From Promicromonospora umidemergens (GTDB lineage: Bacteria > Actinomycetota > Actinomycetes > Actinomycetales > Cellulomonadaceae), in contig NZ_JAMTCT010000033.1 in NCBI RefSeq assembly GCF_024171995.1, forward strand, positions 1 through 49,256: DNA of 49,256 bases, written 5' to 3'. Of this stretch, positions 1,279 to 20,514 are shown in pieces; within the stretch, counting starts at the first letter, position 1; every line of letters starts with the position of its first letter. The position numbers were made by a program, and so were the translations under genes. The notes below the pieces were generated by a model. It had not been told where the DNA came from and did not search any database. It was given only the letters and a program-made list of their open reading frames with translations.

Positions 1279-2655
1279 TTGCTTGTGTGGAACAAGAAGA
1301 CCGTGGCGGTGGCCGCGGCCTATAGCGTAGGCCCTCAAGCGTGGCTGGCCGAGTTCGAGGTGGCGTTCGAGCAGGTCGCGGCCCGGTTCGCCCGCCGGGA
1401 CGCCCGCGGCGCGGCGCGGGATCTGCTGGCTGGGCTGGTCGCTCCGTTGGAGCGGAAGAACTGCTGGACGATCGCCGAGCACGCCGGCCACGAGAGCCCG
1501 CACCGGCTGCAACACCTGCTCGGGCGCGCGGTCTGGGACGCCAACGCGGTCCGGGACGACGTGCGCGACTACGTCCGGGCCCGGCTTGCCGACTCCGAGG
1601 CGGTCCTGGTGGTTGACGAGACCGGCGACCTGAAGAAGGGCACCAAGTCGGTCGGGGTGCAGCGGCAGTACACCGGCACGGCAGGCAGGGTCGAGAACGC
1701 GCAGGTTGCGGTGTTCCTGACCTACGCCGCGCAGCGCGGGCACACGTTCATCGACCGGCGCCTCTACCTGCCCGAGTCCTGGGCGAGCGATCCGGACCGC
1801 CGCCACGAGGCGGGCGTCCCGGACGAGGCCGGGTTCGCGACCAAGCCGCACCTGGCCGCGCAGATGATCACCGACGCGCTGGCCGCCGGGACGCCCGCCC
1901 GGTGGGTCGCCGGGGACGAGGTCTACGGCGCCGACCCGCACCTGCGGTCCACTTGCCGACGCCTGGGGCTGGGCTACGTGCTGGCGATCGGCTGCAACCG
2001 CGCGGTGGCGACCGGCGCCGGGCCGCTACGCGCCGATAAGGCCACCAGCCTGGTCCCGACCGACGCGTGGGCGCGGATGTCGTGCGGCGACGGTTCCAAA
2101 GGGCGCCGCTGGTACTCCTGGGCGGTCCTCGAGCTGGAGCCAGAACCCGACGGCCCTGATCTCGGGTCCGGTCACCACGCCCTGCTCGTGCGCCGCAACG
2201 ACACCACGGGAGAGCTGGCTTGGTACCGCTGCTGGACCCCACGACACGTCGCGATCGGCGACCTGGTGCACGTGGCGGGCCGACGGTGGACCGTGGAGGA
2301 GAACTTCCAGGCCGCCAAGAGCCACGCCGGCCTGGACGAGCACCAGGTCCGCCGCTGGGACTCCTGGCACCGGTGGACCACCCTGGCGATGCTCGGCCAC
2401 GCCTTGCTGACCGTCCTTGCCGTCACGATGAACGACGTAGAGCCGATCGACGATGCAGCAGGCCTGATCGCGGTCACCGTGGGCGAGGGCCGACGCCTGT
2501 TCGCTGCCCTCGTCGCTACCGTCTCGACCACCATCGAACGGGTCCTGGCCTGGTCCCGATGGCGACGACGCCGCCAACACCGCGCCCGACGAGCCCATTA
2601 CCAACGACGCGAAGGCAGCATCACTGCAGCTCACCGGCCCGATCTACGGCTGTAG
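1279..2655 (+). CDS. IS701 family transposase
   Basis: A DDE-type transposase of about 458 residues, close to normal family length. Recognisable blocks are LLAGLVAPLERKNCWTIAEH near the N-terminus, the first catalytic Asp in VLVVDETGDLKKGTKSVGVQ, the second in WVAGDEVYGADPHLR, and the C-terminal catalytic Glu region GRRWTVEENFQAAK followed by GLDEHQVRRWDSWHRW. The start is uncertain: TTG 1279, GTG 1285 and later codons are all in frame. The last codons and the stop lie inside the right terminal repeat. It appears intact and could mobilise the composite element. Confidence 0.93.
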   Translation: MLVWNKKTVAVAAAYSVGPQAWLAEFEVAFEQVAARFARRDARGAARDLLAGLVAPLERKNCWTIAEHAGHESPHRLQHLLGRAVWDANAVRDDVRDYVRARLADSEAVLVVDETGDLKKGTKSVGVQRQYTGTAGRVENAQVAVFLTYAAQRGHTFIDRRLYLPESWASDPDRRHEAGVPDEAGFATKPHLAAQMITDALAAGTPARWVAGDEVYGADPHLRSTCRRLGLGYVLAIGCNRAVATGAGPLRADKATSLVPTDAWARMSCGDGSKGRRWYSWAVLELEPEPDGPDLGSGHHALLVRRNDTTGELAWYRCWTPRHVAIGDLVHVAGRRWTVEENFQAAKSHAGLDEHQVRRWDSWHRWTTLAMLGHALLTVLAVTMNDVEPIDDAAGLIAVTVGEGRRLFAALVATVSTTIERVLAWSRWRRRRQHRARRAHYQRREGSITAAHRPDLRL

Positions 2656-3717: not shown

Positions 3718-4773
3718 GTGAGCACTGAGGAGACCAGGACCGACAGTCCCGAGCGCGAGGCGGGCAGGCAGCCGGGACCGGCGCTGACGCGGCGCTCGGT
3801 GCTCAAGTCCCTGTCGGTGCTCGGTGGCGCGGGTCTTGTCGGCGGAGCCACGCTGGCCGCGTGCACGCCGGACGCCGCGGGTCCTTCCACAGCGGGTGGC
3901 GCCATCGGTACAGAGGAAGGTGTCCACCAGCCCGAGCGCTCCCCGTTGCCGCCCGACGAGGTGCCGGACAGCCTCCGCTTCTTCACCGACCAGGAGGCAC
4001 GCCTGCTCGAGGCGATGCTCGCCCGCCTCGTGCCCGGCGACGGCAAGGACCCGGGAGCGGTCCAGATGGGCGTGGCCAGGTACATCGACGGCAAGCTCGC
4101 CGGCTCCACGCCCTACGCCGAGCCGACCTACACGCACGGCCCTTTCGCCGGTGGCTACGAGGAGGCTCCGAGCGAGGTGGAGGAAGGACGGGTGCCCGTC
4201 GCCCAGGACCAGCTCTACCGGTACGGGTACCAGAGCCGCCGGCCGCCGCAGGATTCCTACCGGCTCGGCCTCGCTGCGCTCGACCGGTACGCGCAGACCC
4301 GGTTCGGCCGCTTCTTCGCCGACCTGGACCCGGAACGCCAGGACGGGATCATCGTCGTCCTGGACGACCACCAGCAGCGCAGCGCGGCCGCCGACCGGCT
4401 CACCGGTGAGGGCGCCGGCCAGGTCACCGGCGAGGACGGCACGGAAGCGGTCTCCACCAGTGACGACGTGCTGGACCAGGCCGAGGAGGTGTTCGGCGCG
4501 GTGGCCCCAGGCAGCTTCTTCGCGATGGTACGCGCGGACACGATCGAGGGCATGTTCGCCGACCCCGCCTACGGCGGTAACAAGGATCTGGCCGGCTGGC
4601 GGCTCGTGGGGTGGCCCGCGGCGCAGCGTTCCTACTCCCCGGAGGAGATGCTCCAGGGCACCGACCGGCAGCCACGACCGATGCACGGGCTGCCCGTCAT
4701 GAACCCGGACCGTCCCGGCGGCGGCCGGACCGCGCTAGAACGGCCCCATCACGGCGTCGTCGGAGAGGGCTGA
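3718..4773 (+). CDS. Gluconate 2-dehydrogenase subunit 3 family, Tat lipoprotein
   Basis: A 351-residue protein. A twin-arginine signal (LTRRSVLKSLSVLGGAGL) ends in a lipobox LAAC, so the protein is predicted to be exported folded and lipid-anchored on the outer face of the membrane. The mature part has the helical pattern of the gluconate 2-dehydrogenase gamma-subunit family, with FFTDQEARLLEAMLARLVPG followed by a helix-rich region that ends in GGNKDLAGWRLVGWP. In known enzymes this small subunit partners a GMC flavoprotein that lacks its own signal and is carried through the Tat pore with it. The next gene, three bases downstream, is such a flavoprotein. The GTG start follows a GAGG-containing stretch. 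It is the first gene of the operon. Confidence 0.85.
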   Translation: MSTEETRTDSPEREAGRQPGPALTRRSVLKSLSVLGGAGLVGGATLAACTPDAAGPSTAGGAIGTEEGVHQPERSPLPPDEVPDSLRFFTDQEARLLEAMLARLVPGDGKDPGAVQMGVARYIDGKLAGSTPYAEPTYTHGPFAGGYEEAPSEVEEGRVPVAQDQLYRYGYQSRRPPQDSYRLGLAALDRYAQTRFGRFFADLDPERQDGIIVVLDDHQQRSAAADRLTGEGAGQVTGEDGTEAVSTSDDVLDQAEEVFGAVAPGSFFAMVRADTIEGMFADPAYGGNKDLAGWRLVGWPAAQRSYSPEEMLQGTDRQPRPMHGLPVMNPDRPGGGRTALERPHHGVVGEG

Positions 4774-4775
4774 GA

Positions 4776-6542
4776 ATGCGGCGACACGACCCGGTGGAGA
4801 TCGTGACGATCGGTGGGGGCATGTCCGCCTCGATCCTCGCGTCGCAGATCCTGCCGCCGACATCGTTCCAGATGGTGTCGCTGGAACAGGGGCCGGCCCA
4901 GTGGACCTACCCCGACTTCGCGCACAACCACGACTCCCTGCGCTTTCGTAACCGCTACGCGATGATGCAGGACATCTCGCGCACCACCTGGACGTGGCGC
5001 CCCGATGCTCGTTCGCCCTCCCTCCCCTACCGCCAGTTCGGCAGCTTCCATCCCGGCGAGGGTCTCGGGGGTTCGATGGTGCACTGGACGGCACTGACGT
5101 GGCGGTTCTTGCCGGACGACTTTCGCTACCGCAGCCTCAACGAGGAGAAGTACGGGAGCGACCGGATCCCGACGGAGATGACCTCGCAGGACTGGCCGAT
5201 CGGCTACGACGACCTCGAACCCTTCTATGACCAGCTCGAGTACGACATGGGCGTCTCAGGCACGGCTGGCAACCTGGGTGGCCAGATCCTGCCCGGCGGG
5301 AATCCCTTCGAAGGGGAACGCACGAGCCCGTACCCCAACCCTCCGCTCGCCCGGAGCAAGTTCGGCCAGCGGTTCACGGACGCCTGCGAGGGCTTGGACC
5401 TGCATCCCTTCCCGACGCCGTCGGGCATCCTGTCGCAGGGTTACACCGACCCGTACGGCAACACCCGCGCCGCCTGCCTGTACTGCGGCTTCTGCACCCG
5501 CTACGGCTGCGAGGTCGGTGCCAAGACTAGCCCGCTGACCACCTGGCTCCCACCCGCACTGGACACGGGGCGGTACGAAGTACGCACGGGCTGCCGGGTG
5601 CTGTGGATCGAGACCGCTGACGACGGTCGGGCCACGGGCGTGCGGTACGTCGACTCCCGTGGTGAGGAGCACGTGCAGCCGGCCGAGGTGGTGGTCTGCT
5701 CGGCGTTCACGCTGGAGAACGTCCGGATGCTGCTCCTGTCCAAGGGCGGCGCGCACCCGGACGGCATCGGCAACGACCGCGGGCAGGTGGGGCGCAACTA
5801 CAGCTACCAGCTCGTCCAGTCGCCGGCGAAGGGGCTGTGGGAGGACGAGAAGTTCAACTTCTTCATGGGCAACGGCTGTACCAACGCGCAGATCTACGAC
5901 TACAACGCCGACAACTTCGACCACTCGGATCTCGGGTTCCTTGGCGGTGCGGCCATCTCTGCCGAAGCCGGTCAGCGCGAGCCGATCAGCTCGTCCGACT
6001 CGCTCCTGGACGGCTTTGTGAGCCGGCAGTGGGGTGCGGACTGGAAGTCGATGCTCGGCCGGTCCTGGGACCGGGTGGGCAGTGTCGGCATCGAGGGGGA
6101 CAGCCCCGCCTATGCCGGGAACTTCCTGGACCTCGACCCGACCTACCGGGACGAGTGGGGTCTGCCGATGCTGCGCATCACCTTCGACTGGCGGGAGAAC
6201 GAGCGGAACATGTACCGCTTCCTCGCCGGCCGCTGCGAGGAGATCCTCCGCGCGATGAACCCTGACCGGGTCAGTGTCTCCTCCGAGCTTCCCCCGTACC
6301 GCATCGACCAGTACCAGAGCACGCACCCCACGGGCGGGGCCATCATGGGCCAAGACCCGGGCGACAGCGTGACCAACAGCTACGGGCAGGTGTGGGACAC
6401 ACCCAACGTGTTCGTGACCGGTGCCGCCCTGTACCCCCAGAATCCCGGGGCCAACCCGAGCGGCACGGTGGGCGCGCTGGCGCTGCGCACGGCCGAAGCC
6501 ATCCGGGACCGGTACTTCGCCCGTCCGGGGGAGCTGCTGTGA
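4776..6542 (+). CDS. GMC family flavin dehydrogenase (gluconate/sugar dehydrogenase type)
   Basis: A 588-residue FAD enzyme. The nucleotide-binding loop is IGGGMSASILASQ near residues 10-22. The catalytic C-terminus has the HPTGG histidine (His517) and the NPGANPSGT motif (about 556-564) found in gluconate, sorbitol and related bacterial dehydrogenases. A cysteine-rich block CLYCGFCTRYGCEVGAKTS lies mid-protein; related enzymes have similar cysteines and some bind an iron-sulfur cluster, so a cluster here is possible but unproven. It has no signal peptide and probably travels with the Tat-targeted upstream subunit. The substrate is unknown. No separate multiheme cytochrome subunit, which normally takes electrons from such enzymes, is encoded nearby. 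ATG 4776 follows the previous stop by two bases. Confidence 0.88.
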   Translation: MRRHDPVEIVTIGGGMSASILASQILPPTSFQMVSLEQGPAQWTYPDFAHNHDSLRFRNRYAMMQDISRTTWTWRPDARSPSLPYRQFGSFHPGEGLGGSMVHWTALTWRFLPDDFRYRSLNEEKYGSDRIPTEMTSQDWPIGYDDLEPFYDQLEYDMGVSGTAGNLGGQILPGGNPFEGERTSPYPNPPLARSKFGQRFTDACEGLDLHPFPTPSGILSQGYTDPYGNTRAACLYCGFCTRYGCEVGAKTSPLTTWLPPALDTGRYEVRTGCRVLWIETADDGRATGVRYVDSRGEEHVQPAEVVVCSAFTLENVRMLLLSKGGAHPDGIGNDRGQVGRNYSYQLVQSPAKGLWEDEKFNFFMGNGCTNAQIYDYNADNFDHSDLGFLGGAAISAEAGQREPISSSDSLLDGFVSRQWGADWKSMLGRSWDRVGSVGIEGDSPAYAGNFLDLDPTYRDEWGLPMLRITFDWRENERNMYRFLAGRCEEILRAMNPDRVSVSSELPPYRIDQYQSTHPTGGAIMGQDPGDSVTNSYGQVWDTPNVFVTGAALYPQNPGANPSGTVGALALRTAEAIRDRYFARPGELL

Positions 6543-6943
6543 CCCGCGCAGGGGCGCCGGCCCGGGTGCGGGTCGGCGCAGCGGCGACGCTGGTCGCCGT
6601 CGTCGCCGGGTTGTCAGCGTGTGTGGCGAGCGCCGCGCCGCCGCCCGCGGAGGTACGCCTGACCACCGCCGGGTTCGAGCCCGTGCTCCTCGAGACGGTC
6701 GCAGGCACCGAGGTCCGGTTCGTCAACCGCTCGGAGCGTCCCCAGCGGGTCGCGTCCCTGGGGCTCGACGACGGCACTGCGGCCGTGCCGACGGGAGCCG
6801 GTCCCCTCGACTCGGGCCGCCTGCTGGCGGGCGCCACCTACGCGGAGCGGCTCGACATACCGGGCGAGTACGTGGTCGAGGCGCTCCTCGACGGGACGCG
6901 CACCCGGTCGGTCGTCACGATCCAGGTGAAGGAGTCCCCATGA
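6539..6943 (+). CDS. Cupredoxin-fold lipoprotein without copper ligands
   Basis: A 134-residue protein starting at GTG 6539, four bases inside the end of the dehydrogenase gene. The N-terminal hydrophobic segment ends in a lipobox (LSAC, about residues 27-30), so it is predicted to be anchored outside the membrane. The mature domain of about 100 residues has the strand pattern of cupredoxins: a GFEPVLLETVAGTEVRFVNR segment and a closing YVVEALLDGTRTRSVVTIQV. The Cys, His and Met copper ligands of blue copper proteins are absent, so it is unlikely to carry electrons through copper. A structural or assembly role with the oxidase is more likely. Its stop overlaps the ctaC start. Confidence 0.7.
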   Translation: MTRAGAPARVRVGAAATLVAVVAGLSACVASAAPPPAEVRLTTAGFEPVLLETVAGTEVRFVNRSERPQRVASLGLDDGTAAVPTGAGPLDSGRLLAGATYAERLDIPGEYVVEALLDGTRTRSVVTIQVKESP

Positions 6944-7953
6944 TCGCTGCCCGGATCCCAGCGATGTTTCCGCCCGCCAGCCCCGACGCCAGCCGGGTCG
7001 ACAGCCACTGGCAGCTGCTGCTGATCGCCGGGTCCGCGGTCTGGGTGGTCGTCGTGACGGTGGCACTGGTCGCCGTAGTCCGCCGACGGCGAAGCACCGA
7101 GCACCCTGCCGGCGACGTCCCCGAGGCGACGAGCGGCAACGGGCACCTCGCCGTTGGCTTCCTGGGGGCGGTGGTGCCTGCGCTGATCATCATCGGGGTC
7201 ATGACCGACTCCGTGCTGGTGCTCCGCGACACTGCGGGGACGGGCGACGCCGCCGACGCAGCAACCGTCGTCGAGGTCGACGGGAACCAGTTCTGGTGGG
7301 AGGTGCGGTATCCCGGGCACGACGTGGAGACCGCCAACGAGATCCACATTCCCACGAACCAGGACGTGCGCGTCGAGCTGACCAGCTCGGACGTCATCCA
7401 CAGCTTCTGGGTCCCGCAGCTCAGCGGCAAGGTGGACCTCGTACCCGGACAGACCAACGTGCTGACGCTCGCCGCCGACAAGCCGGGCACCTACTGGGGC
7501 CAGTGCGCCGAGTACTGCGGCGTCCAGCACGCCTGGATGCGGTTCGTCGTGGTCGCCCACGAACCCCAGGAGTACGCCGGCTGGCTCGACGCACAGGCAC
7601 GCCCCGCCGCGTCCGCCGATCAGACCGACGGCGACGCCGACGCCGACGGGCCGGCCGCCGACGTCGGGCCCGTCTCTGAGGTGGCCGCTGGTCGGGAGAT
7701 CTTCATGTCGTCGTCCTGTGTCTACTGCCACACCGTCGCCGGCACGGAGGCGCAGGGCACGCTCGGGCCCGACCTGACGCACCTGGCGAGCCGGCAGATG
7801 ATCGGCGCCGGCGTGCTGCCCAACGACCGCAAGAGCCTCGCCCGCTGGATCGAGCACCCCCAGAAGGTCAAGCCGGGCAACGTCATGCCGGGCACCGACC
7901 TGGACGACGACGAGCTCGACGCCCTGATCACCTACCTGCAGAGCTTGGAGTAG
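6940..7953 (+). CDS. ctaC: Cytochrome c oxidase subunit II with C-terminal cytochrome c (caa3 type)
   Basis: A 337-residue protein with two membrane helices (about 22-45 and 67-90) followed by an extracytoplasmic CuA domain. CuA ligands are all present: His154 in VIHSFWVP, Cys189-x-Glu191-x-Cys193, His197 and Met200. A linker rich in Asp/Ala leads to a cytochrome c domain with the heme motif CVYCH (Cys260, Cys263, His264) and the axial Met316 in NVMPG. The fused cytochrome makes this a caa3-type oxidase that can take electrons without a free cytochrome c, and it needs covalent heme attachment, which explains the Ccm genes downstream. It overlaps the upstream gene by four bases. Confidence 0.95.
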   Translation: MIAARIPAMFPPASPDASRVDSHWQLLLIAGSAVWVVVVTVALVAVVRRRRSTEHPAGDVPEATSGNGHLAVGFLGAVVPALIIIGVMTDSVLVLRDTAGTGDAADAATVVEVDGNQFWWEVRYPGHDVETANEIHIPTNQDVRVELTSSDVIHSFWVPQLSGKVDLVPGQTNVLTLAADKPGTYWGQCAEYCGVQHAWMRFVVVAHEPQEYAGWLDAQARPAASADQTDGDADADGPAADVGPVSEVAAGREIFMSSSCVYCHTVAGTEAQGTLGPDLTHLASRQMIGAGVLPNDRKSLARWIEHPQKVKPGNVMPGTDLDDDELDALITYLQSLE

Positions 7954-7956
7954 CAC

Positions 7957-10485
7957 GTGACCACGGACCAGGAGACCGGGCCGAGCGCCGAGCAAAGGGC
8001 GCGCTTCGCGCAGGCCTGGGCCCGGCCGCGCGGCTTGCGCCGGATCCTCATGCCCGTGCAGCACAAGTCCGTCGGCACGCGCTACATGGTCACCGCGTTC
8101 GTCTTCTTCTTCGTCGGGGGCCTGCAGGCGCTGCTCATGCGCGTCCAGCTCGCCCAGCCCGAACAGGACGTGCTCTCGCCACAGACCTACAACGAGCTGT
8201 TCACCATGCACGGCACGACGATGATGTTCCTCTTCGCCGTGCCGTTCCTGGAAGGGCTGGCGGCCTACCTGCTACCGCTGATGCTCGGCGCCCGCGACAT
8301 GCCGTTCGCGCGGTACAACACCTTCAACTACTGGTGCTACCTGCTGGGCGGGATCATCCTGTACAGCAGCTTCGTCGTCGGCATGGTGCCCGACGCCGGC
8401 TGGTTCGCCTACGTCCCGCTATCCGGTCCCGAGTTCGCCGACAAGGCCATGGACATCTGGCTGTTCGGGCTGGCGCTCGCCGAGCTCGCCGCGATCGGCG
8501 CGGCGATCGAGATGATCGTCGTCGTCCTCGCGATGCGCGCGCCCGGGATGTCGCTGGACCGGATGCCCATCTTCGCGTGGACCATGCTGTGCGTCGCGGC
8601 GATGATCATCCTGGCCTTCGTCCCCCTGCTGGTCGGCTCCCTGCTCCTCGAGCTCGACCGCAACATCAGCACGGCGTTCTTCGACACGGAGCGGGGCGGG
8701 GACCCGCTGCTGTGGCAGCACCTGTTCTGGATCTTCGGGCACCCCGAGGTCTACGTGATGTTCCTGCCGGGCGCCGCCATCATCAGCCACGTCGTGCCGG
8801 TGCACTCCCGGCACCGGCTCGTGGGCTATCCCTTCGTCGTCGCCGCCATCGTGGTCACCGCGATCATGAGCCTCGGCCTGTGGGTGCACCACATGTACAC
8901 GACCGGGCTCCCGCCCGTGACGCTGTCGTTCTTCACGGCCGCGAGCATGTCGATCAGCGTGGCGTCCGGTGTGCAGGTGGTCGCGTGGATCGCGACCCTC
9001 TGGTCCGGGCGGCCCCGGCTGACGGTCCCGATGCTGTTCTCGCTCGGCTTCCTGTTCACGTTCGTGGCCGGCGGCATCACGGGGGTCATGGTTGCGTCCG
9101 CCCCGTTCGACGCGCAGGCGCACGACACGTATTTCGTCGTGGCGCACTTCCACTACGTGCTGATCGGCGGCATGCTGTTTCCCGTCCTGGCAGGCCTGTT
9201 CCACTGGTGGCCCAAGTTCACGGGTCGCATGCCATCGGCCAGGCTCGGCACGGTGAGCTTCTGGCTGGCGTTCGTCGGCTTTCACCTCACGTTCTTCCCG
9301 ATGCACCTGTCGGGCCTGTGGGGCATGCCCCGGCGGGTGTACACCTACGACGCCGGGCTGGGCGTCGGTGTGCTGAACCTGCTCTCGACCATCGGTGCGT
9401 TCATCTTCGCCGCCGGGCTCGTGCTCACGGCGATCACCCTGCTCGGCGCGCTGCGGCGCGGGGAACGCTCCGGGCCCGACCCGTGGGGCGCGGACACGCT
9501 GGAGTGGGTGGCCGACTCTCCGCCGGCGTCAGCCAACTTCGGCCGGATCCCCGTGGTGACCGGCCGGGCACCGCTGTGGGACCGGCCGTCGCACGACCCG
9601 AAGCTGGAACGGATGTCCGCCGCCTTCGACCACGCTCCGCAGAACGTGCGTGCCACGCCCTTCACGACCGTGCTGAGCGCGCTGCCGAACACCGCGGCGG
9701 TCCAGGCCGGTCCGACGTTCTGGCCGTTCCTGGCCGCCGGCGGGCTCGCGCTGGCGGCTGCCGGCCTGCTCCTGGAGAGCGGCTGGGTGCTGGGCGCCAG
9801 CGTGCTCGTTATCGTCGGGGCGTTCGTGGCGTGGGAGCTCCAGAACGAGCGCGAGCTGGGCGCGGGCGAGTCCACCGAGCCGGTGGGCGGCGAATACCTG
9901 GTCGAGGCGCCGGGCCCGCTGTCGCCCGGCTGGTGGGGAGCAGCCGGCGCGGCGGTGGTGCTCGTCGTCGCCGTCACGACCGTCGCGTTCAGCCTGCTCT
10001 TCCTCCAGGTCAACGCACCCGTATGGCCGCAGGGAGAGTCGCTCGGCCTGCCGTGGCTGTCGGCGGGCACCGGCCTGGCCCTGGTGCTGGCGATCTCGGC
10101 GTCCTGGTGGGGCTCACGCCAGGGCCCGCTCAGCCACGACGCTCCGCCGACAGCGCGCGGCGCTCACCTGGCCGCCGCCGTGACGAGCACGTTCGCCGGA
10201 GCGGTGGCGCTCGTCCTGGCGGTCGCCCAGTGGCCGGCCGGTGGACTGGACCACACGGCGCACTCCTACGACTCCGGTGTCCTGATGCTCGTCAGCACGC
10301 TGGCGCTGGCCATCCTGCTCGGCCTCGGACTCACGATCTGCGCTCTCCTGGCGCGTCTGACGCACACCCGCGACATCCGTCCCCGGATCATGCTGCAGAA
10401 CGCCGCGGTCCTGTGGACCGGAGTGCTCGTCGTCTGGGCCGTGGCCTGGGCCGCCACCGACCTCATGCCGTTGGCGGTGGTCTGA
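7957..10485 (+). CDS. ctaD: Cytochrome c oxidase subunit I fused to subunit III-like domain
   Basis: An 842-residue membrane protein. The N-terminal 520 or so residues form heme-copper oxidase subunit I. His85 (TMHGTTMM) and His399 are heme a ligands, His397 is the heme a3 ligand, and CuB ligands are His262 in FGHPEVY with Tyr266 as the cross-linked tyrosine, and His311-His312 in VHHMYTTG. From about residue 587 a further segment has seven hydrophobic helices and few conserved residues, matching the size and helix number of subunit III. No separate subunit III gene exists in the operon, so a I/III fusion is the simplest reading. It starts three bases after ctaC. Confidence 0.93.
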   Translation: MTTDQETGPSAEQRARFAQAWARPRGLRRILMPVQHKSVGTRYMVTAFVFFFVGGLQALLMRVQLAQPEQDVLSPQTYNELFTMHGTTMMFLFAVPFLEGLAAYLLPLMLGARDMPFARYNTFNYWCYLLGGIILYSSFVVGMVPDAGWFAYVPLSGPEFADKAMDIWLFGLALAELAAIGAAIEMIVVVLAMRAPGMSLDRMPIFAWTMLCVAAMIILAFVPLLVGSLLLELDRNISTAFFDTERGGDPLLWQHLFWIFGHPEVYVMFLPGAAIISHVVPVHSRHRLVGYPFVVAAIVVTAIMSLGLWVHHMYTTGLPPVTLSFFTAASMSISVASGVQVVAWIATLWSGRPRLTVPMLFSLGFLFTFVAGGITGVMVASAPFDAQAHDTYFVVAHFHYVLIGGMLFPVLAGLFHWWPKFTGRMPSARLGTVSFWLAFVGFHLTFFPMHLSGLWGMPRRVYTYDAGLGVGVLNLLSTIGAFIFAAGLVLTAITLLGALRRGERSGPDPWGADTLEWVADSPPASANFGRIPVVTGRAPLWDRPSHDPKLERMSAAFDHAPQNVRATPFTTVLSALPNTAAVQAGPTFWPFLAAGGLALAAAGLLLESGWVLGASVLVIVGAFVAWELQNERELGAGESTEPVGGEYLVEAPGPLSPGWWGAAGAAVVLVVAVTTVAFSLLFLQVNAPVWPQGESLGLPWLSAGTGLALVLAISASWWGSRQGPLSHDAPPTARGAHLAAAVTSTFAGAVALVLAVAQWPAGGLDHTAHSYDSGVLMLVSTLALAILLGLGLTICALLARLTHTRDIRPRIMLQNAAVLWTGVLVVWAVAWAATDLMPLAVV

Positions 10486-10486
10486 C

Positions 10487-10867
10487 GTGGCAGCACCGGA
10501 GGCCACGCGACCGCGCTCGACGCGCCTCGCCGTCGCCGCCGTCCTCGTCCCGCCCGTCGCCTGGGTCTGTGCCCTCGGGCTGTCCTACGTGGTACAGGAC
10601 TTCGCCTGCACCGCCTACGCCAGCGCCGGCCGGAACCCGCCCACGGCGCTGATCGGCACGGCCGTCGTGACGCTCGACGTGGTGCTGCTGGTCCTGACCC
10701 TCGCCGCCGGCGTCGTGGCATGGCGCACGAGCCGGCGTGCCACGGCCGGCGGCGGCTCCCCGCTCTTCGGCTTCCTCGGCCGCCTCGGCCTGTTCCTGTC
10801 CCTCGGGTTCGCGGCCGGGATCGTCATGATCGCCGTCAACCCGCTCGTCCTGGAGGTCTGCGCATGA
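10487..10867 (+). CDS. Small four-helix membrane protein of oxidase operon
   Basis: A 126-residue protein with three to four hydrophobic helices, starting at GTG 10487 directly after the ctaD stop. A Cys-containing motif LSYVVQDFAC follows the first helix. Small proteins with a similar layout sit next to subunit I/III fusions in other bacteria, but no function is known to me. A role as an extra oxidase subunit (subunit IV-like) or assembly factor is inferred from position only. Its stop overlaps the ccmC start (ATGA), suggesting translational coupling. Confidence 0.75.
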   Translation: MAAPEATRPRSTRLAVAAVLVPPVAWVCALGLSYVVQDFACTAYASAGRNPPTALIGTAVVTLDVVLLVLTLAAGVVAWRTSRRATAGGGSPLFGFLGRLGLFLSLGFAAGIVMIAVNPLVLEVCA

Positions 10868-11589
10868 GAGACAACCGCGGCCATGTCGCTGCCCCGCGCG
10901 GGCGCCGGGCACTCGTGCTCGCTGCCGCGCTCAGCACCGCCCTTGCCCTGGCCCTGGTCCTCGTCGCGCCGCCCGACGCGGTGCAGGGCGACGCACAGCG
11001 CTGGATGTACCTGCACGTACCGGCCGCGTGGTCGGCCTACCTGTGCTTCGCCGTCGTGCTGGTGGCGTGCCTCCCGGTGGCGCTGCACGATGCCGGCCGG
11101 CCGCTCGCGGTGGCGCGTGCCGCCGCCGAGGCCGGAGTGGTGCTCACGGCCGTGACCCTGGCCACGGGAAGCGTCTGGGGTGCGCAGACCTGGGGCTCCT
11201 GGTGGGTATGGGACGCCCGGGTCACGACGACGGTGGCGATGGGCCTGGTCTACGTCGCCTTCCTCGCCGCGCTCACCCTCGCGACGGGCCCCAGGGGGCG
11301 GCGCACCGCCGGCACCGCCGGAGTGCTCGGGTTCCTCATGGTTCCCGTGGTCCATCTCTCGGTGGTGTGGTGGCGCACGCTCCATCAGCCACCCACGGTG
11401 CTCGCGCCCGGTACCGACGCGCCGATCGCCCCGGTCATGGCCTGGACGCTGGCCGTGTCGGTCCTGGCGTGCACGCTGCTGACCACGGTCGTGGTGCTCG
11501 ACCGTGCCCGGCACGGTGCCGGGCACGACTCACCGCTCGCTGTCGCCGACCCCGACGAGGCGCGCCAGCGGCTTCCGGTGGCGCCATGA
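10864..11589 (+). CDS. ccmC: CcmC-like heme handling protein
   Basis: A 241-residue membrane protein with six predicted helices. It has the heme-binding WWD motif of the heme-handling family, WGSWWVWD at residues 110-117. Two conserved histidines flank it, His51 in MYLHVPAAW and His164 in VVHLSVVWW, as in CcmC. In System I cytochrome c maturation CcmC passes heme to the chaperone CcmE, which is the next gene. The length is typical for CcmC and shorter than CcsA/ResC proteins, which also lack the paired CcmE. It overlaps both neighbours by four bases. Confidence 0.9.
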   Translation: MRDNRGHVAAPRGRRALVLAAALSTALALALVLVAPPDAVQGDAQRWMYLHVPAAWSAYLCFAVVLVACLPVALHDAGRPLAVARAAAEAGVVLTAVTLATGSVWGAQTWGSWWVWDARVTTTVAMGLVYVAFLAALTLATGPRGRRTAGTAGVLGFLMVPVVHLSVVWWRTLHQPPTVLAPGTDAPIAPVMAWTLAVSVLACTLLTTVVVLDRARHGAGHDSPLAVADPDEARQRLPVAP

Positions 11590-11984
11590 GGGTGGCCCTG
11601 CCCCGCGGCCGCGGGCGAGCCTGGGCCGTCCTGGTCATCGCCGCGCTCGGCCTCGCCGGCCTCCTGGCCTCCGCGGCGCAGGACGGACTCACCTACTGGG
11701 GCACACCCAGCGAGCTCCTGGCACAGGGGGCCATGGACCGCGACGTGCGGCTCGGCGGCCTGGTGGTGTCCGGCAGCGTGGCGCAAGACGCGACGGGTGC
11801 CTCGTTCGTCCTGACCGACGGCGCCACCGACGTGACCGTGCACTACGCCGGTGCACTGCCCGCCGCCGTCCGCGAAGGTGAAGGTGCGGTCGTCGAGGGC
11901 GTGCTCGACGGGCAGGTGCTGCACGCACGGTCCGTACTGCTGCGGCACTCGAACGAGTACCGGCCGCCGGAGGGCGCGCCATGA
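11586..11984 (+). CDS. ccmE: CcmE heme chaperone
   Basis: A 132-residue protein with one N-terminal membrane anchor (about residues 13-31) and an OB-fold domain. The VRLGGLVVSGSV segment is the conserved strand region. The heme-attachment motif HxxxY is present as His121-Ser-Asn-Glu-Tyr125 near the C-terminus, followed by RPPEG; the histidine is of the normal bacterial type. CcmE binds heme from CcmC covalently and delivers it to the CcmF/CcmH ligase, and both partner genes follow directly. It overlaps ccmC and ccmF by four bases each. Confidence 0.93.
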   Translation: MRVALPRGRGRAWAVLVIAALGLAGLLASAAQDGLTYWGTPSELLAQGAMDRDVRLGGLVVSGSVAQDATGASFVLTDGATDVTVHYAGALPAAVREGEGAVVEGVLDGQVLHARSVLLRHSNEYRPPEGAP

Positions 11985-14437
11985 CCACCGGACCGATGGT
12001 GACCGGCACCGTGCTGCTGGGCATCTCCCTCGCGACGGCGGTGGTCGCCGCCGTCGCCTGGGGTTGCGCCGCGCAAGCACCGACCGGTCAGGCCGCCACG
12101 CGGATCCCGGCCCGCACCACGAGCCGGGCCGCCCGGTTCGGCACGCAGACCCTCGTCGCGAGCGCCGTGGCGATCGCGGGCGCCGTCGCGCTCCTCCAGG
12201 TTGCGCTGCTCCGGCGGGACGCCACGTGGCCGTACGTGGAGCGCGTGACGGACATCGGTATGCCGGCGTACTACCGCGTCACGGCGATGTGGTCAGCGCT
12301 CGAGGGGTCGCTGCTGCTGTGGCTGGCGGCGCTCGCTACCGTGGCTGTGGTCGCTGTCGCCACGACGCGCCGGCTGGTGCCGCAGGATCGTGCGGTGGTG
12401 CTGTGCGTGCTCGCCGCCGTCCTCGCCCTGTTCGGCGTGGTGTCCTTGGTGGCGTCGCCGTTCACGGCGTCGAGCGGTTCCGGCGGGTCGCCGAGCCCGT
12501 TGTTGCGCGACCACGTGGCGATGGGCGTGCACCCGCCCCTGCTCTACGCCGGGTTCGCGGCGCTGGCCGTGCCCTACGCGCTGTCCGCGACTGCGCTCGT
12601 TCGACGCCGGCTGCCGCTCGGCTGGGCGGCGACCACCCGGGTGTGGAACGTGGTGGCGTGGACGCTGCTGACCGCCGGTGTCGGCCTCGGCGCGTGGTGG
12701 TCCTACGCCGTGCTCGGCTGGGGCGGGTACTGGGCCTGGGACCCCGTGGAGAACGCGTCGCTGCTGCCGTGGCTGGCGTCCACCGCGCTGCTGCACGCCG
12801 TCGGCCCGCGCACGCGGAGCGGACAGTGGCGCGCCTGGGCGATCGTCCTGGCGGGGTTGGGGTTCGTGCTCGTGGTGCTGGCCCAGCTCATCACGCGGTC
12901 CGGTGTCGTGGAGTCCGTCCATGCCTTCACGACGTCGGCGCTCGGCCCCGTCCTGGCAGCCGTGCTCGGCGGGGTGGTCGTGCCGTGGGTGGCCCTCCTC
13001 ATGCGTGCCGGCTCCCCCATCGGTGCCCCGTACCCGGCCGGGTCCGTGCACCGAGCCGGCTCCGTGCGCCGCGGTGGGGTCCGAGGCGTCGCCCTGGACG
13101 GCCAGCGCACGCTGCTGACCGTCGTGCTAGTGGTGGTGGCGGTCGGCACGCTGCTGCCCACGGCGCTCCTGCTGCTCACCGGCGACCGGGTCTCCGTGGG
13201 CCCGCCCTGGTACCAGCGCACGCTGGCGCCGTTCGCGCTCCTGCTCCTCGTGCTGCTCGCCGCGGCCCCGTGGCTCGCCCGAGCCCGGCAGCCACCCCAC
13301 CCGCTCCTCCCGGGGGCCGCCGGCGCCGTGGTGTGCTGCGTCGTCGGGATCATCGTCCGCGACCCGGAGCTCGCCGTCGTCGCGGGGCTGGCGGCGTTCA
13401 CCGTCACGGCGGGCGTGCCCGTGCGCCATCGGCGAGCCGGACGCAGACCGGACCGGCACGCCGTCGGCTCCTGGCTCGCGCACGCCGGGGTGGCACTGGG
13501 GGCGGTGGCCGTCGTGGCCGGTAGCCACGGGACGGTACGGGAGGCGGTGCTGCCCGTCGGTGAGACGCTCGCCGCCGGGGACACCACCGTGACGCTGGTG
13601 CGGATCGACCGGCACGACGACGCCGGTCGGCAGGTGGCCGAGGCCGAGTTCCTCGTCGGCCGGGACGGGCAGCACGTAGGCACCGCCCGCCCGCAGCTGC
13701 GCTGGTACCCCGACGACGCCGCGATGCTCGCCGGGCCGGACATCCGCAGCGGCTTCTTCGACGACGTGTACGTCACGCTGCTCGACGCCGACCCGGCCGC
13801 GGGTTCCGCCACCCTGCGGCTCGCCGTGACCCCGCTGGTCGGATGGCTCTGGGCCGGTGTAGCGCTCGCGGTAGCGGGCGGTCTGGTGGCGTCAGCACCC
13901 TGGCGCAGGCCGACGAAGGTCCCGACGGCGCGGATGCGGCGGCGCCTGCCCATGCACACGATGGCCGGTGTGCTGCCCGTGCTCGTCCTGGGGCTCGTCG
14001 GGTGCGCGCCGGCCGAGGACGCGCCGGGCCCCGCACCGCCCCTGGCCGGCGAAGGCCTGGACGGCCACGAGTACGACGTCGCCGACCTGCGCGGGTCGGT
14101 CGTGCTGGTCGCGGCCTGGGCGTCGTGGTGCGCTCCGTGCCGCGACGAGATGCCGGTGCTCGTGGACGCCCAGGAAGAGCTCGCTGACGCCGGGCTTGAG
14201 GTGCTCGGTATCAATGTTCGTGACCTTCCCGATCCCGCACGCCGGTTCGTCGCCGAGCACGACCTGTCGTTCCCCAGCATCATGGACCAGCAGGGCACGA
14301 TGTCGGTTGCCTGGGGCCTGCGGGGTGTCCCGGCCACGTACCTCGTGGACCGTGAGGGCCGCCTCGTCGAGCAGCATCCCGGACCCGTGACCCAGGAGTG
14401 GATCGACACGGTGGTGGAGCCGGAGGTGCGCGGATGA
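11981..14437 (+). CDS. ccmF: CcmF-CcmG fusion: cytochrome c heme lyase fused to thioredoxin-like reductase
   Basis: An 818-residue protein in one open frame. Residues 1 to about 648 are CcmF: multiple membrane helices, a conserved His184 in MGVHPPLLY, the WWD motif WGGYWAWDPVEN at 247-258, and a C-terminal soluble loop plus final helix (PLVGWLWAGVALAVAGG). From about residue 655 a second hydrophobic segment ends in a lipobox-like LVGC (Cys675), followed by a thioredoxin domain with WCAPC (Cys717, Cys720) and GVPATYLVDREG, typical of CcmG/DsbE/ResA. CcmG reduces apocytochrome cysteines before heme ligation. The two are normally separate genes. No stop or frameshift separates them, though internal starts at ATG 13935 or 13950 could also give free CcmG. 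Confidence 0.9.
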   Translation: MTTGPMVTGTVLLGISLATAVVAAVAWGCAAQAPTGQAATRIPARTTSRAARFGTQTLVASAVAIAGAVALLQVALLRRDATWPYVERVTDIGMPAYYRVTAMWSALEGSLLLWLAALATVAVVAVATTRRLVPQDRAVVLCVLAAVLALFGVVSLVASPFTASSGSGGSPSPLLRDHVAMGVHPPLLYAGFAALAVPYALSATALVRRRLPLGWAATTRVWNVVAWTLLTAGVGLGAWWSYAVLGWGGYWAWDPVENASLLPWLASTALLHAVGPRTRSGQWRAWAIVLAGLGFVLVVLAQLITRSGVVESVHAFTTSALGPVLAAVLGGVVVPWVALLMRAGSPIGAPYPAGSVHRAGSVRRGGVRGVALDGQRTLLTVVLVVVAVGTLLPTALLLLTGDRVSVGPPWYQRTLAPFALLLLVLLAAAPWLARARQPPHPLLPGAAGAVVCCVVGIIVRDPELAVVAGLAAFTVTAGVPVRHRRAGRRPDRHAVGSWLAHAGVALGAVAVVAGSHGTVREAVLPVGETLAAGDTTVTLVRIDRHDDAGRQVAEAEFLVGRDGQHVGTARPQLRWYPDDAAMLAGPDIRSGFFDDVYVTLLDADPAAGSATLRLAVTPLVGWLWAGVALAVAGGLVASAPWRRPTKVPTARMRRRLPMHTMAGVLPVLVLGLVGCAPAEDAPGPAPPLAGEGLDGHEYDVADLRGSVVLVAAWASWCAPCRDEMPVLVDAQEELADAGLEVLGINVRDLPDPARRFVAEHDLSFPSIMDQQGTMSVAWGLRGVPATYLVDREGRLVEQHPGPVTQEWIDTVVEPEVRG

Positions 14438-15354
14438 GCCGGCGCCGTCGATCCTGGTCCGTTGCGGTGCTGACCGTTGTCCTCGCGCTTGTCGCGGTGA
14501 CCGGCACGGTCGTCGCCCTCACGGGCCGCGAGCCGCCGACCGCGACGGAGCAGACCCGCGCCGTTGCGAGCACGCTGCGCTGCCCGTCGTGCCTCGGGGA
14601 GCACGTGGCCGACTCGACGTCCCCCGTCGCGGAGTCGATGCGCCTGGTGGTGGCCGAGCAACTCGCGGCCGGTCGCTCACCGGACCAGGTACGGGCCTGG
14701 TTCGCGGACGCGTACGGCGACGAGGTGCTGCTCGAGCCGCCGCGGCGCGGCGCAGGCTGGACGCTCTGGGTGGTCCCGCTCGTCGTGGTCGGCGCGGCCG
14801 CCGTGTGGTTCGCCCGGCGCCGGAGCCGCCGCGCCCTCGGGACCACAGCGACCGCCATCGGCGTCGCGCTGCTCGGGGCCTGGTGGCTGGCGCCGGGCCT
14901 GCTGCCCGCCTCGACCGGCGCCTCAGCGGCCGGCAGCTCCCCGACCAGCGCTTCCCCGACCGGCACCACCACCGAACGGACGGGAACCGCGGTGTCCGTG
15001 CTCCAGGACGCCGTGGCAGACCAGCCCGGCCGGGTGGAGCTGCGGGCCGCGCTCGCCCACCAGCTCGACGAGGCAGGGCGCACGGACGCCGCGGTCCCCC
15101 ACTGGGCCGCCGCCGTACGGCTCCGGCCGATGGATTCGGACCTGCGCTACCGCTACGCCTTCGCCCTGACGCGCACGGGATCGCCCGGTCAGGCGGTCCC
15201 CGTGCTGGAGGAGACGCTCGCGATCGACGCCCACCACGCGCCGACCCTCCTGCTCCTCGGGTCGTCGATCGAGGAGTCCGACCCGGAGCGCTCGGCAGCG
15301 CTCCTGGTGCGGTACCGGGCGACGCGTGCCGAGGACCCAGAGGAGCAGCCGTGA
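14434..15354 (+). CDS. ccmH: CcmH/CcmI-like protein (LRCPSC motif plus TPR)
   Basis: A 306-residue protein. After an N-terminal membrane anchor comes the CcmH motif LRCPSCLG (Cys50, Cys53), which binds apocytochrome thiols. The three-helix pattern of the CcmH domain follows (MRLVVAEQLAAGRSPDQVRA then WFADAYGDEVLL). Two further membrane helices lie at about 109-128 and 137-155. The C-terminal third has tetratricopeptide-like repeats (AALAHQLDEAGRTDAAVPHW and the following copy), the part that CcmI contributes elsewhere by holding the apocytochrome tail. It is therefore a CcmH-CcmI type fusion. It overlaps the CcmF-CcmG gene by four bases. Confidence 0.9.
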   Translation: MSRRRRSWSVAVLTVVLALVAVTGTVVALTGREPPTATEQTRAVASTLRCPSCLGEHVADSTSPVAESMRLVVAEQLAAGRSPDQVRAWFADAYGDEVLLEPPRRGAGWTLWVVPLVVVGAAAVWFARRRSRRALGTTATAIGVALLGAWWLAPGLLPASTGASAAGSSPTSASPTGTTTERTGTAVSVLQDAVADQPGRVELRAALAHQLDEAGRTDAAVPHWAAAVRLRPMDSDLRYRYAFALTRTGSPGQAVPVLEETLAIDAHHAPTLLLLGSSIEESDPERSAALLVRYRATRAEDPEEQP

Positions 15355-15773
15355 GACGACGGGGCAACGCCGTGCCGCGACGCGCCACCGGAGCCGTCGT
15401 GACCGCGCTGCTGACTGCCACCCTGGCCACCGGCTGCACCGCGACCCACGACGGCGTGCCAGAGCCCGGGATGTCCGGGGCCGTGACCTCCACGCTGCGC
15501 GTCGGCCTCACCGAGTGGAGCATCGAGACAGGCGGCGCCGTACCCGCGTCCGGCGAGCTCACCGTGCTGGTCACGAACGCCGGCGCCATGGGTCACGACC
15601 TCGTCGTCGAGGGCGAGCGCGGCACCTGGCAGACACCGGTGCTCGACCCGGGCGAGCAGCACGAGCTCACGGTCACCGCCGTGGCGGGCGAGACGCTCGA
15701 ACTGATCTGCAGCGTCTCCGGCCACCATGCCGCGGGCATGAGCTCCGAGCTCGACGTCGTGGAGGACCCGTGA
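15351..15773 (+). CDS. Blue-copper-like (cupredoxin) lipoprotein
   Basis: A 140-residue lipoprotein with signal and lipobox ending LATGC near residue 29. The mature cupredoxin domain carries a plausible type 1 copper site: a His in AMGHDLVVEG and the C-terminal ligand loop LICSVSGHHAAGM, with Cys, His and Met spaced as in plastocyanin-like proteins. It may carry electrons to the oxidase or act as a copper donor during CuA/CuB assembly; the CopD-CtaG gene that follows favours either. It begins at GTG 15351 inside the end of ccmH and overlaps the next gene by four bases. Confidence 0.85.
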   Translation: MRRRGNAVPRRATGAVVTALLTATLATGCTATHDGVPEPGMSGAVTSTLRVGLTEWSIETGGAVPASGELTVLVTNAGAMGHDLVVEGERGTWQTPVLDPGEQHELTVTAVAGETLELICSVSGHHAAGMSSELDVVEDP

Positions 15774-17659
15774 CCCGCCGGACACCCGGCCGCGCCCTGA
15801 CCACGGTGGCCGGCGTCGCGCTGGCCGTCGCGGCGCTCGCCGCCGCCTGGGGGCTCGTGGTCAGCGGCGTGACCGATCCCCTGCTCCGCGACCCCGGCGT
15901 CCTCACCCGGTGGGGCCTGCCTCTCGCCGAGGTGGTCGCCCGGCTGGCCGCGACGGTGACGATCGGCGGGCTGGCCCTTGCCGCCGTCGTCCTGGCGCCG
16001 ACGGCGGCCGGCCCAGCCGTGCGAGCGGCCGTGGTCGCCGCTGTGGTGTGGGCGGTCGCTCAGGCGGTCTGCCTGCCTCTGACCGCGCGCACCGTCGTCG
16101 GTTCCGCGACCGCCGACGACGGCACGCCCGCCGTCACCGTGCTCCTCGGCACGATCCTCGGCACGTCCCTGCTCTGGGCCGCGGCGCTCGCAGTGGCGGT
16201 GGCGGTCGTGCTGCTCGTCGCGTCCGGACCCGCCCGCGTGCCCCTCGCGCTCGGGACGGCGCTGCTCGCGCTGATTCCGGTCGCCGCGTCGGGGCACGGG
16301 CACGGGCCGGGTCACGGCGCCGCCTCCGCGCTGTGGCTTCACCTGGCTGCCGTCACGGTCTGGACCGGCGGGCTCTTAATGCTGGTCGCGCTCGCGTACG
16401 GGCCCGGGACGGGACCCGCCTCCGGCGCTGCCTCGCTGGCTGCTGTCCGACGGTTCTCCCGGGTCGCGGGCTGGTGCTACGTCGTCGTGGCCTCGTCAGG
16501 CGTGCTCATCGTGCTGCAGCTGTCCCTGTCCCCCGCGGACCTCCTGACAACCGGCTGGGGCGCCCTGCTCCTGACGAAGACTGCGCTCTTCGCCGGGCTC
16601 GGCGCCGCCGGGTGGGCCCACCGCCGAGTAGTGATCACGCGGGCCGCCCTGAGCGGCGCACGGCCCCTCGCCCGGCTCGCGCTCGGTGAGGTGGTGGTGC
16701 TCGCAGCAACCGTCGGGCTTGGCGTAGCACTCGGGTCCTCGGCGCCGCCGCCCACGTCCGCCGGCGACGGCGCACTACCGCCGCTCACGGTGTCCACCGC
16801 CCTGACCCAGTGGCGCCCGGAGCCGGTGCTGGTGCTCGTGGCGATCGCCGGGCTGGTGACCTACCTGCGCTGGGTCGCACGGCTGGCGCGGCGCGGAGAC
16901 CGGTGGCCGGCCGGCCGGGTGCTCGCCTGGGTAGGCGCGATGGTGCTGCTGCTCTGGGTCACCAGCGGTGGGCCTGCGGCGTACGGCCACGTGCTGGTCA
17001 GCGCCCACATGGTGCAGCACATGGTGCTCGTCACCGCCCTACCGGTGCTCGCAGCCATGGCTTCGCCAGTGACCCTCGCGCTACGCTCGCTGCCGACCAC
17101 GACGGACGGCCCTCGCGGGCCACGTGAGTGGCTGCTCGCGGTGCTCGGCAGCAGAGCCGCCCACGTCCTGCTGCACCCGGTGGTCGCGACGGCCAACGTG
17201 GTGGTCAGCATGGCCCTCTTCTATGCGACGCCGCTGTTCGAGCTGAGCCTGACCAACGGCGTCGTGCACCTGTGGGCGGTGCTGCACTTCAGCCTGGCCG
17301 GATATGCGTTCACCACGATCCTCGTCGGAACCGATCCCGTGCCGCTCCGGCCGCCATACCCGCTGCGGCTGCTCATGCTCGCACCGGCCATGGTGTTCCA
17401 CACCGTGCTCGGGCTCACCCTGGTCACCAGCTCCAAGATGCTGCTCGCCGCCTCAGTGCTGGCGCAGTCACGACCGGACTGGCTCACCGACCCGATCACC
17501 GACCAGCAGGCTGCCGGAGCACTCGTGTGGGCGCTGGGCGAGGTACCGGCCCTGGGGCTAGCCCTCCTGATCGCGGCCCGCTGGGCGGCTGCCGACGAAC
17601 GTGACCAGCGCAGAGCCGCCCGTCGAGGGGCCGTCTCTGCGCGCTTACTGGACTCCTAG
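15770..17659 (+). CDS. CopD-CtaG fusion, copper uptake and oxidase assembly membrane protein
   Basis: A 629-residue protein with about 14-16 membrane helices. The N-terminal half resembles CopD (copper import): helices with the histidine-rich loop ASGHGHGPGHG at about residues 171-181 and a conserved W-x-G-G motif. The C-terminal half is CtaG-like (caa3 oxidase assembly), with SAHMVQHMVLVTALPVLA, then HFSLAGYAFTTILVGTDP and MVFHTVLGL. CopD-CtaG fusions are common in actinobacteria. Its place at the end of the operon suggests it supplies copper to the new oxidase. GTG 15770 overlaps the previous stop. Confidence 0.9.
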   Translation: MTRRTPGRALTTVAGVALAVAALAAAWGLVVSGVTDPLLRDPGVLTRWGLPLAEVVARLAATVTIGGLALAAVVLAPTAAGPAVRAAVVAAVVWAVAQAVCLPLTARTVVGSATADDGTPAVTVLLGTILGTSLLWAAALAVAVAVVLLVASGPARVPLALGTALLALIPVAASGHGHGPGHGAASALWLHLAAVTVWTGGLLMLVALAYGPGTGPASGAASLAAVRRFSRVAGWCYVVVASSGVLIVLQLSLSPADLLTTGWGALLLTKTALFAGLGAAGWAHRRVVITRAALSGARPLARLALGEVVVLAATVGLGVALGSSAPPPTSAGDGALPPLTVSTALTQWRPEPVLVLVAIAGLVTYLRWVARLARRGDRWPAGRVLAWVGAMVLLLWVTSGGPAAYGHVLVSAHMVQHMVLVTALPVLAAMASPVTLALRSLPTTTDGPRGPREWLLAVLGSRAAHVLLHPVVATANVVVSMALFYATPLFELSLTNGVVHLWAVLHFSLAGYAFTTILVGTDPVPLRPPYPLRLLMLAPAMVFHTVLGLTLVTSSKMLLAASVLAQSRPDWLTDPITDQQAAGALVWALGEVPALGLALLIAARWAAADERDQRRAARRGAVSARLLDS

Positions 17660-20116: not shown

Positions 20117-20213
20117 GTCGGGTTCCTTTCTAGATTGGGTTTGCGCCGACAGTTTCGCCAGCACTCCACCCTGTCTCGCGGGTCCCCCACTCGCATGCTC
20201 GGTACGGAGCGGC

Positions 20214-20513: not shown

Positions 20514-20514
20514 A

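Follow-up and report, generated by a model that had tools for sequence, protein, structure and literature searches.

How does a bacterium attach heme to a cytochrome c with System I (Ccm) proteins when CcmB, one half of the ATP-binding cassette (ABC) pair CcmAB of that system, is not found? This question is raised by an operon of Promicromonospora umidemergens on contig NZ_JAMTCT010000033.1, the whole of which (contig 33 of 65 in a genome of 6.6 Mb; 49,256 nucleotides) was analysed and is called the window here. Based on gene calls and a Pfam search, twelve plus-strand genes (g1 to g12, Table 1) were confirmed at 3718-17659. They are packed tightly: eight of the eleven junctions are 4-base overlaps (with the GTG at 15351 as start of g11) and three are gaps, of 2 bases between g1 and g2, 3 between g4 and g5 and 1 between g5 and g6. 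As the initial annotation had proposed, the operon combines a dehydrogenase, a caa3 oxidase and System I genes. The annotation's term 'self-contained' has to be dropped, since CcmA, CcmB and CcmD are all missing from the operon, no ABC gene is found by Pfam among its proteins, and CcmB is undetected in the whole genome. The gene content, the undetectable CcmB in ten carriers, the intact motifs and the purifying selection are observations. The reading we favour with some reserve is a System I variant in which CcmC would load CcmE and CcmE would serve CcmF without CcmAB.

The CcmB model (PF03379) gave no match in the whole genome of P. umidemergens (G000; genomes, loci and contigs are labelled G, L and C), in G919, G966, G1232 and G1124, or in the whole genomes of Micromonospora sp. 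U21, Plantactinospora mayteni and Actinoplanes sp. KI2. In G934 and G918, matches were found only below the cut-off (23.3 and 22.6 bits), bringing the total of CcmB-less carriers of this Ccm lineage to ten whole genomes. The same model detected CcmB above its cut-off in 27 of 34 CcmE carriers, the lowest at 56 bits. These 34 are part of the CcmE carriers found; eight genomes reached through their loci were tested as well, two of them repeats (G1297 = G918 and G1299 = G526), and the claim is limited to one lineage. Two genomes of the family, G784 and G529, hold an ordinary CcmB-bearing System I with 38% identity.

A second test was made on loci, using a model of our own built from nine proteins, and detected CcmB in 85 out of 111. 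Among the 26 loci without it, ten show ccmC together with 1 kb or more of sequence upstream of it, and all ten belong to the Ccm lineage of the window (nine genomes; L064 and L167 are one contig in duplicate). The other 16 comprise four with ccmC at a contig edge and twelve in which ccmC is not matched within view (one is a mere flank piece). Among these 16 are four CcmF loci from other phyla (L065, L071, L085 and L117), which have flanks of several kb with neither a ccmC match nor CcmB in view. The distance from ccmC to ccmE is -19 to -4 in nine of eleven CcmB-less rows from the ten genomes (median gap -4), against a median of 120 in 52 CcmB-bearing rows, among which L058 is closed at -31; nine more CcmB-bearing rows with distant ccmC and ccmE were set aside. 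In the window the slot for ccmD between these genes is closed by a 4-base overlap, and CcmD was looked for at the locus only. A CcmD fused to CcmC was discarded, since the CcmC alignment shows no added membrane segment by eye. The C-terminal part of g5 was considered as a hidden CcmB and ruled out because it matches COX3.

The remaining Ccm proteins carry the features of System I, namely a CcmF of that type, the CcmE and CcmC motifs and the thiol proteins CcmG and CcmH. Both CcmC histidines and the WWxWD motif, which have heme-handling roles, are kept in 9/9 aligned rows. Such roles are also described in PMC11868835 (here and below, papers cited by PMC number are drawn on in excerpt). The HxxxY motif of CcmE is present in 9/9 rows and so is the CPxC of CcmH, which reads LRCPSC in the window and LLCPAC instead of LRCPxC in L124. 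The fused g9 resembles the solved CcmF 6zmq (254.4 bits) and, in its CcmG part with the thioredoxin motif WCAPC, the CcmG-type structure 1kng (87.4 bits). CcmF and CcmG in one open frame were also seen in a Chloroflexota metagenome-assembled genome (MAG; L071 10001-12304), the only one of seven loci checked. Compared to the copy in G934, omega (the ratio of non-synonymous to synonymous change) is 0.28 for CcmC, 0.22 for CcmE, 0.26 for CcmF-G and 0.44 for CcmH-I. It stays below 1 for all twelve genes (0.12 to 0.74, the highest being g6) in what is a simple Nei-Gojobori count between two same-genus genomes. No stop codons occur within the twelve genes of either genome. The Ccm genes are under purifying selection.

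Taken together, the operon would encode a dedicated respiratory branch with its own stripped-down heme-attachment machine. Judging from the anatomy of the proteins, electrons would pass from a Tat (twin-arginine translocation)-exported flavin adenine dinucleotide (FAD) dehydrogenase, probably also with an iron-sulfur site, through g11 or directly to the heme c of subunit II, and from there over CuA and heme a to heme a3-CuB and oxygen. The single heme c of subunit II may be attached by CcmC, CcmE, CcmF-CcmG and CcmH-I only. In this scheme CcmC would carry heme across or out of the membrane and load CcmE, which would hand it to CcmF and skip the ATP-driven release by CcmAB, while the fused CcmG together with CcmH-I would hold the CXXCH cysteines reduced. 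The release of holo-CcmE might be spontaneous or triggered by CcmF, which may suffice for a single heme client. We infer that the Ccm set works as a machine and needs no ATPase. For the wider proposal that this is an ATP-independent line, with CcmC alone moving heme to CcmE and on to CcmF in the absence of CcmAB and, here, of CcmD, kept since an early Actinomycetota ancestor, the chances appear about even.

Several points weigh against a CcmAB-free pathway. In Escherichia coli System I, CcmAB is used to release holo-CcmE (PMC12077264), and CcmB has been called essential for maturation (PMC11868835). By eye, a short CcmD-like frame is retained in L099 and L169. The CcmA model TIGR01189 matches many ABC ATPases, about 50 to 114 per genome, and hence discriminates poorly; the best listed match in the P. 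umidemergens genome is 115.8 bits with a cut-off of 131.6, and one match in the CcmB-less G1232, about 80 kb from ccmE, exceeds it with 135.6 bits. The place of CcmAB could be taken by an ABC protein unrelated to it, or by a CcmB that has diverged very far. ResB of System II was found in all 21 genomes checked, the ten carriers included, and could mature subunit II. In the CcmF tree the ten CcmB-less rows form one side of a branch (10/106) with a low support of 48, and support reaches 100 only when they are joined by L081, a locus that does have CcmB, away from CcmF. This locus (L081 10001-21713, a groundwater Actinomycetota MAG) holds CcmB, CcmC and CcmE some 7-10 kb downstream of CcmF, along with a g11-like protein.

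As a rival explanation, holo-CcmE could be released by proteins encoded elsewhere in the genome, either a CcmB/CcmA pair that has diverged or a heme exporter of unrelated kind. CcmA-like ATPases are abundant, with the one of G1232 over the CcmA cut-off, and the weak CcmB-model matches in G934 and G918 could be seen in the same light. The operon itself is without an ABC gene, however, and the model that recovers CcmB from 27 other genomes does not reach its cut-off in any of the ten carriers, so that we regard such a hidden exporter as rather unlikely.

A CcmAB-free Ccm set could also be auxiliary to System II, if CcsBA/ResBC of the same cell exported the heme or matured subunit II. According to the table in PMC9145763, the actinobacterium Corynebacterium glutamicum relies on System II. 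The initial annotation regarded System II as typical of such bacteria, in agreement with the ResB present in the same genome. This is a single match on contig C23, outside the operon (which has no ResB), with a Cytochrom_C_asm copy adjoining it. Four more Cytochrom_C_asm (CcsA-type) matches lie at the ends of contigs C45, C38, C14 and C46, those of C45 and C38 beside CcdA-like frames as judged by eye; perhaps these are repeated System II copies that broke the assembly. A contribution of System II to the heme of subunit II is possible. As the sole explanation we consider it unlikely, because the heme motifs of CcmC and CcmE and the purifying selection would not be expected if heme were no longer carried, and because a caa3 oxidase lies near the Ccm set in 9/10 carriers.

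The distribution of the operon was examined next to its phylogeny. All twelve genes recur in the same order in G934 of the same genus and G966 of the same family, and 11/12 and 10/12 genes were found in G919 and G918, whose contigs stop inside the operon. This recurrence makes the operon more than a chance arrangement, and chance or wrong reading frames for the twelve genes were ruled out by it. A long CcmF-G match was found in 5/221 genomes of the family, P. umidemergens included, and in 2/13 of the genus, with identities to the window of 81% for G934, 74% for G918 and G919, and 68 and 60% for two pieces in G966. Among named relatives, Myceligenerans pegani (Promicromonosporaceae) is the nearest found, with a CcmF-G that is 72% identical; it corresponds to G918 (locus L064), and G918 and G919 make up the Myceligenerans group (g249). 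CcmE was detected in 6/396 genomes of the order, 10/394 of the class and 170/396 of the phylum, so System I is common in the phylum and rare in the class, as the initial annotation had supposed for the class. When G934 is compared to the window, similarity ends at the operon edges and the flanks are unlike. This and the patchiness fit movement or repeated loss. Carriage on known plasmids was rejected: 541 plasmid records match CcmF-G, none with 80% coverage in one place and none with at least 60% identity.

In three genomes from outside the family (Micromonospora sp. U21, Plantactinospora mayteni and Actinoplanes sp. KI2), ccmC-E-F-G-HI is accompanied by a nearby caa3 cluster on the opposite strand. 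In Actinoplanes sp. KI2 (L124) this cluster holds CtaG, COX3, cytochrome b and Rieske genes by Pfam, and L089 and L099 look similar by eye. A caa3 subunit I gene is found within the fetched stretch in 9/10 carriers, the window included; the exception is G1232 (L169), where no such gene is in view. A Gluconate_2-dh3/GMC pair and a thiamine-pyrophosphate enzyme precede ccmC in L124, the only one of five non-family relatives (L089, L099, L124, L169 and L170) with a GMC gene in the fetched stretch. The dehydrogenase therefore is an optional partner: the link to the oxidase that had been drawn from gene order is a local one. Thiamine-pyrophosphate enzymes lie near ccm/caa3 genes at L164 2579-4243, L166 1-1653, L099 14269-16038 and L124 5824-7614, with none beside the operon in the window.

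Trees were made from the best 80 of the listed matches to the window CcmF-G and 31 stretches from genome searches, with few Pseudomonadota among them. For CcmF, 108 loci were found and 106 rows used, after addition of the window and removal of L167 and two rows with stops or fewer than 450 amino acids; for CcmC, 96 were found and 94 used, the window being added and L167 and two others being dropped by a similar filter. The group of CcmB-less rows plus L081 is nested in a group of 55 Actinomycetota rows in the midpoint-rooted CcmF tree (94 by Shimodaira-Hasegawa-like approximate likelihood ratio test, SH-aLRT), with six rows of the same phylum outside it (L051, L053, L054, L055, L056 and L062). 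The ten CcmB-less rows form one side of a branch in the CcmC tree too (10/94, support 88). For CtaD, a tree of 11 rows, with two long branches joined and L114 left out because of stops, shows only that the carriers group together. The nucleotide identity of the operon was also compared to that of 20 kb around ResB, giving 82.8 vs 86.1% for G934, 79.9 vs 76.1% for G918, 78.9 vs 74.5% for G919 and 72.3 vs 73.2% for G966. Since these values are close, the operon is not a recent import. Measured against the ResB region, the operon is a little more diverged within the genus and a little closer to the Myceligenerans genomes, which leaves room for an old exchange between related genera. G935 has a ResB about as close as that of G934 (94 and 95%), yet lacks the operon.

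These results bear on the horizontal acquisition of a whole respiratory module suggested in the initial annotation, read as a recent gain of a complete System I module of proteobacterial type. Its rarity in the class, its patchiness in the genus, the transposase upstream and the unlike flanks speak for such a gain. A source in a foreign phylum is not supported, as CcmF falls within the Actinomycetota group, and neither is recent import, as the operon has diverged about as much as the ResB region; the set is moreover incomplete. Such a gain is very improbable and the case for import weak; what deserves following up is the System I without CcmB. The CcmF tree, in which few Pseudomonadota were sampled, gives no support to a proteobacterial origin of the Ccm set. 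With a midpoint root and this sampling, a remote foreign origin is possible. The lineage seems to be of old, Actinomycetota origin and patchily retained, not a recent import, and a single loss of CcmAB in one lineage would be the simplest reading. Missing parts and a patchy distribution might suggest that ccmABD was lost and that the other ccm genes are left to decay as a relic; this is scarcely credible given their uninterrupted and selected frames, an order kept in five family genomes as far as the contigs extend, and the absence of CcmB in non-family relatives too.

Table 1. Features of the operon and the transposase upstream of it, with positions in the window
Feature	Position	Strand	Basis
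g1, gluconate 2-dehydrogenase subunit 3-like	3718..4773	+	PF13618 95.7 bits
g2, GMC flavoprotein dehydrogenase, FAD-glucose/fructose dehydrogenase large-subunit type	4776..6542	+	PF05199, PF00732
g3, cupredoxin-fold lipoprotein	6539..6943	+	alignment, AlphaFold2, Foldseek
g4, caa3 oxidase subunit II, CuA and C-terminal cytochrome c	6940..7953	+	COX2 78 bits, Cytochrom_C 49.7 bits
g5, oxidase subunit I (A-type) fused to diverged subunit III	7957..10485	+	COX1 490.7 bits
g6, small hydrophobic caa3-linked protein	10487..10867	+	hhalign
g7, CcmC	10864..11589	+	PF01578 84.8 bits
g8, CcmE heme chaperone	11586..11984	+	PF03100 82.2 bits
g9, CcmF heme lyase fused to CcmG thioredoxin	11981..14437	+	PF16327 128.5, PF01578 97.6, PF00578 76.5 bits
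g10, CcmH fused to CcmI-like TPR part	14434..15354	+	PF03918 95.1 bits, TPR
g11, blue-copper-like lipoprotein	15351..15773	+	start from sequence, alignment, AlphaFold2, Foldseek
g12, CopD fused to Caa3_CtaG, copper and caa3 assembly	15770..17659	+	PF09678 217.3, PF05425 50.5 bits
DDE_5 transposase, upstream of operon	1285..2655	+	PF13546 177.7 bits

Pfam upheld the gene content assigned earlier. Besides the lack of CcmA, CcmB and CcmD in the operon, two points had to be corrected: a diverged subunit III is joined to subunit I, and the first cupredoxin (g3) is without copper ligands. Families above cut-off are Gluconate_2-dh3, GMC_oxred (N and C), COX2 with Cytochrom_C, COX1, Cytochrom_C_asm (CcmC) and CcmE, followed by Cytochrom_C_asm, CcmF_C and AhpC-TSA (CcmF-CcmG), CcmH with TPR, and CopD with Caa3_CtaG. 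No Pfam family was assigned to g6 and g11, and g3 has only a sub-cut-off match (FAP42_B3, 21.5 bits).

A GMC subunit together with a Gluconate_2-dh3 subunit places g1 and g2 with the FAD sugar dehydrogenases. The g1 signal, read by eye, combines a twin-arginine motif (TRRSVLKSL) with a lipobox, and the protein is conserved in a 4-row alignment; by its sequence, g1 is the predicted Tat partner of g2. The closest solved structures to g2 are FAD-glucose dehydrogenase 6a2u (113 bits) and fructose dehydrogenase 8xcm (110 bits), with which its Cys-rich stretch aligns. We take this Cys cluster, which is shared with both enzymes, to be an iron-sulfur site, and their small subunit is presumably Tat-exported like g1. 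They differ from the window in that the operon has no multiheme cytochrome c subunit and offers cupredoxins and an oxidase instead. The sole cytochrome c domain found is that of g4, which is the only heme c client seen within the operon.

With a COX1 core and both CuA and heme c on subunit II, the oxidase belongs to the caa3-type A1 cytochrome c oxidases. The CuA ligands, one CXXCH and the Met of g4 are invariant in 8/8 aligned rows. g5 matches the COX1 structure 6hwh with 452.6 bits, has 6adq among its best matches too (both presumably mycobacterial), and reaches 403.9 bits with the fused subunits I and III of Thermus caa3 (2yev). A diverged COX3 makes up its C-terminal third (hhalign 95.6% vs COX3, 0.3% vs CcmB). 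The fusion of I to III is thus shared with the Thermus enzyme, which presumably also bears heme c on subunit II as in g4, whereas several other COX1 chains (6hwh, 6adq) score higher than 2yev, and the window joins dehydrogenase and ccm genes with the oxidase in one operon. One further COX1 of the genome is located on contig C1. A distant relative of g6 adjoins caa3 in non-family relatives (A1 vs A2 hhalign 81%, E 1.2e-5).

Past the lipobox Cys, g3 has zero Cys and zero His in the alignment, which predicts that it is without a type 1 copper site. Its AlphaFold2 model is of modest confidence (predicted local distance difference test, pLDDT, 69.6), and the best Foldseek match is pseudoazurin 6paz (E 4.4e-7). 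In g11 a ligand set H, C, H, M is invariant in six rows, and the model (pLDDT 80.4) matches Cu nitrite reductase, auracyanin and azurin in Foldseek. GTG at 15351 is its likely start; the alignments were made from the GTG at 15399. As g11-like genes adjoin ccmH-I in L169 and L170 too, g11 is tied to the ccm/caa3 part as much as to the dehydrogenase.

Between the transposase and g1 there is a DUF4383 gene on the minus strand (3077-3526). Neighbours at 18863-30255 include genes for DUF4193, two CBS-domain proteins, a partial alpha-amylase, a cation efflux protein, a hemerythrin-esterase fusion and a GCS2 ligase. The segments 20231-20507 and 27012-27184 resemble DNA upstream of the operon in G918/G919 (77-82% nucleotide identity), which hints at a partly shared neighbourhood. 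A promoter and terminator scan gave 0 and 1 sites, not above shuffled sequence.

Compared to E. coli System I, the window shares CcmC, CcmE with HxxxY, CcmF, CcmG and CcmH-I with their heme and thiol motifs; it differs in that no CcmB is detected, CcmA and CcmD do not adjoin, CcmF and CcmG are fused and, as far as the operon shows, one caa3 heme c is the single client. Reduced forms of System I occur naturally. The archaeal CcmABCEF of Methanosarcina acetivorans also has no CcmD, but it keeps CcmAB and is without CcmH/I, the reverse of the window set (PMC9084895). System I* of sulfate reducers likewise misses parts, being without CcmG/H and having Cys on CcmE, whereas the window set has CcmG/H and the CcmE His but no CcmB (PMC3601427). 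That 2011 review, in the part drawn on, argues for CcmABCDEF as the possible fundamental core of the system and lists CcmA and CcmB without known variants. Among the matches listed from the open-licence literature (titles and abstract starts), no bacterial System I without CcmAB and no description of this operon were recognised; with 2/13 genomes it is not common in the genus either.

As for the role of CcmB, two conclusions were published in 2025. According to PMC11868835, CcmB is the heme translocase. Another group concluded that CcmCD carries the heme and that CcmAB only releases holo-CcmE (PMC12077264). If System I indeed operates without CcmAB in the lineage described here, CcmB would not be an obligatory heme translocase, and holo-CcmE could be released without ATP. 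With CcmB undetectable in ten genomes and CcmC, CcmE and CcmF maintained by selection, this lineage puts both claims to a natural test and could help to decide how heme gets across the membrane. Its Ccm set is also a smaller System I from which reconstitution could be attempted.

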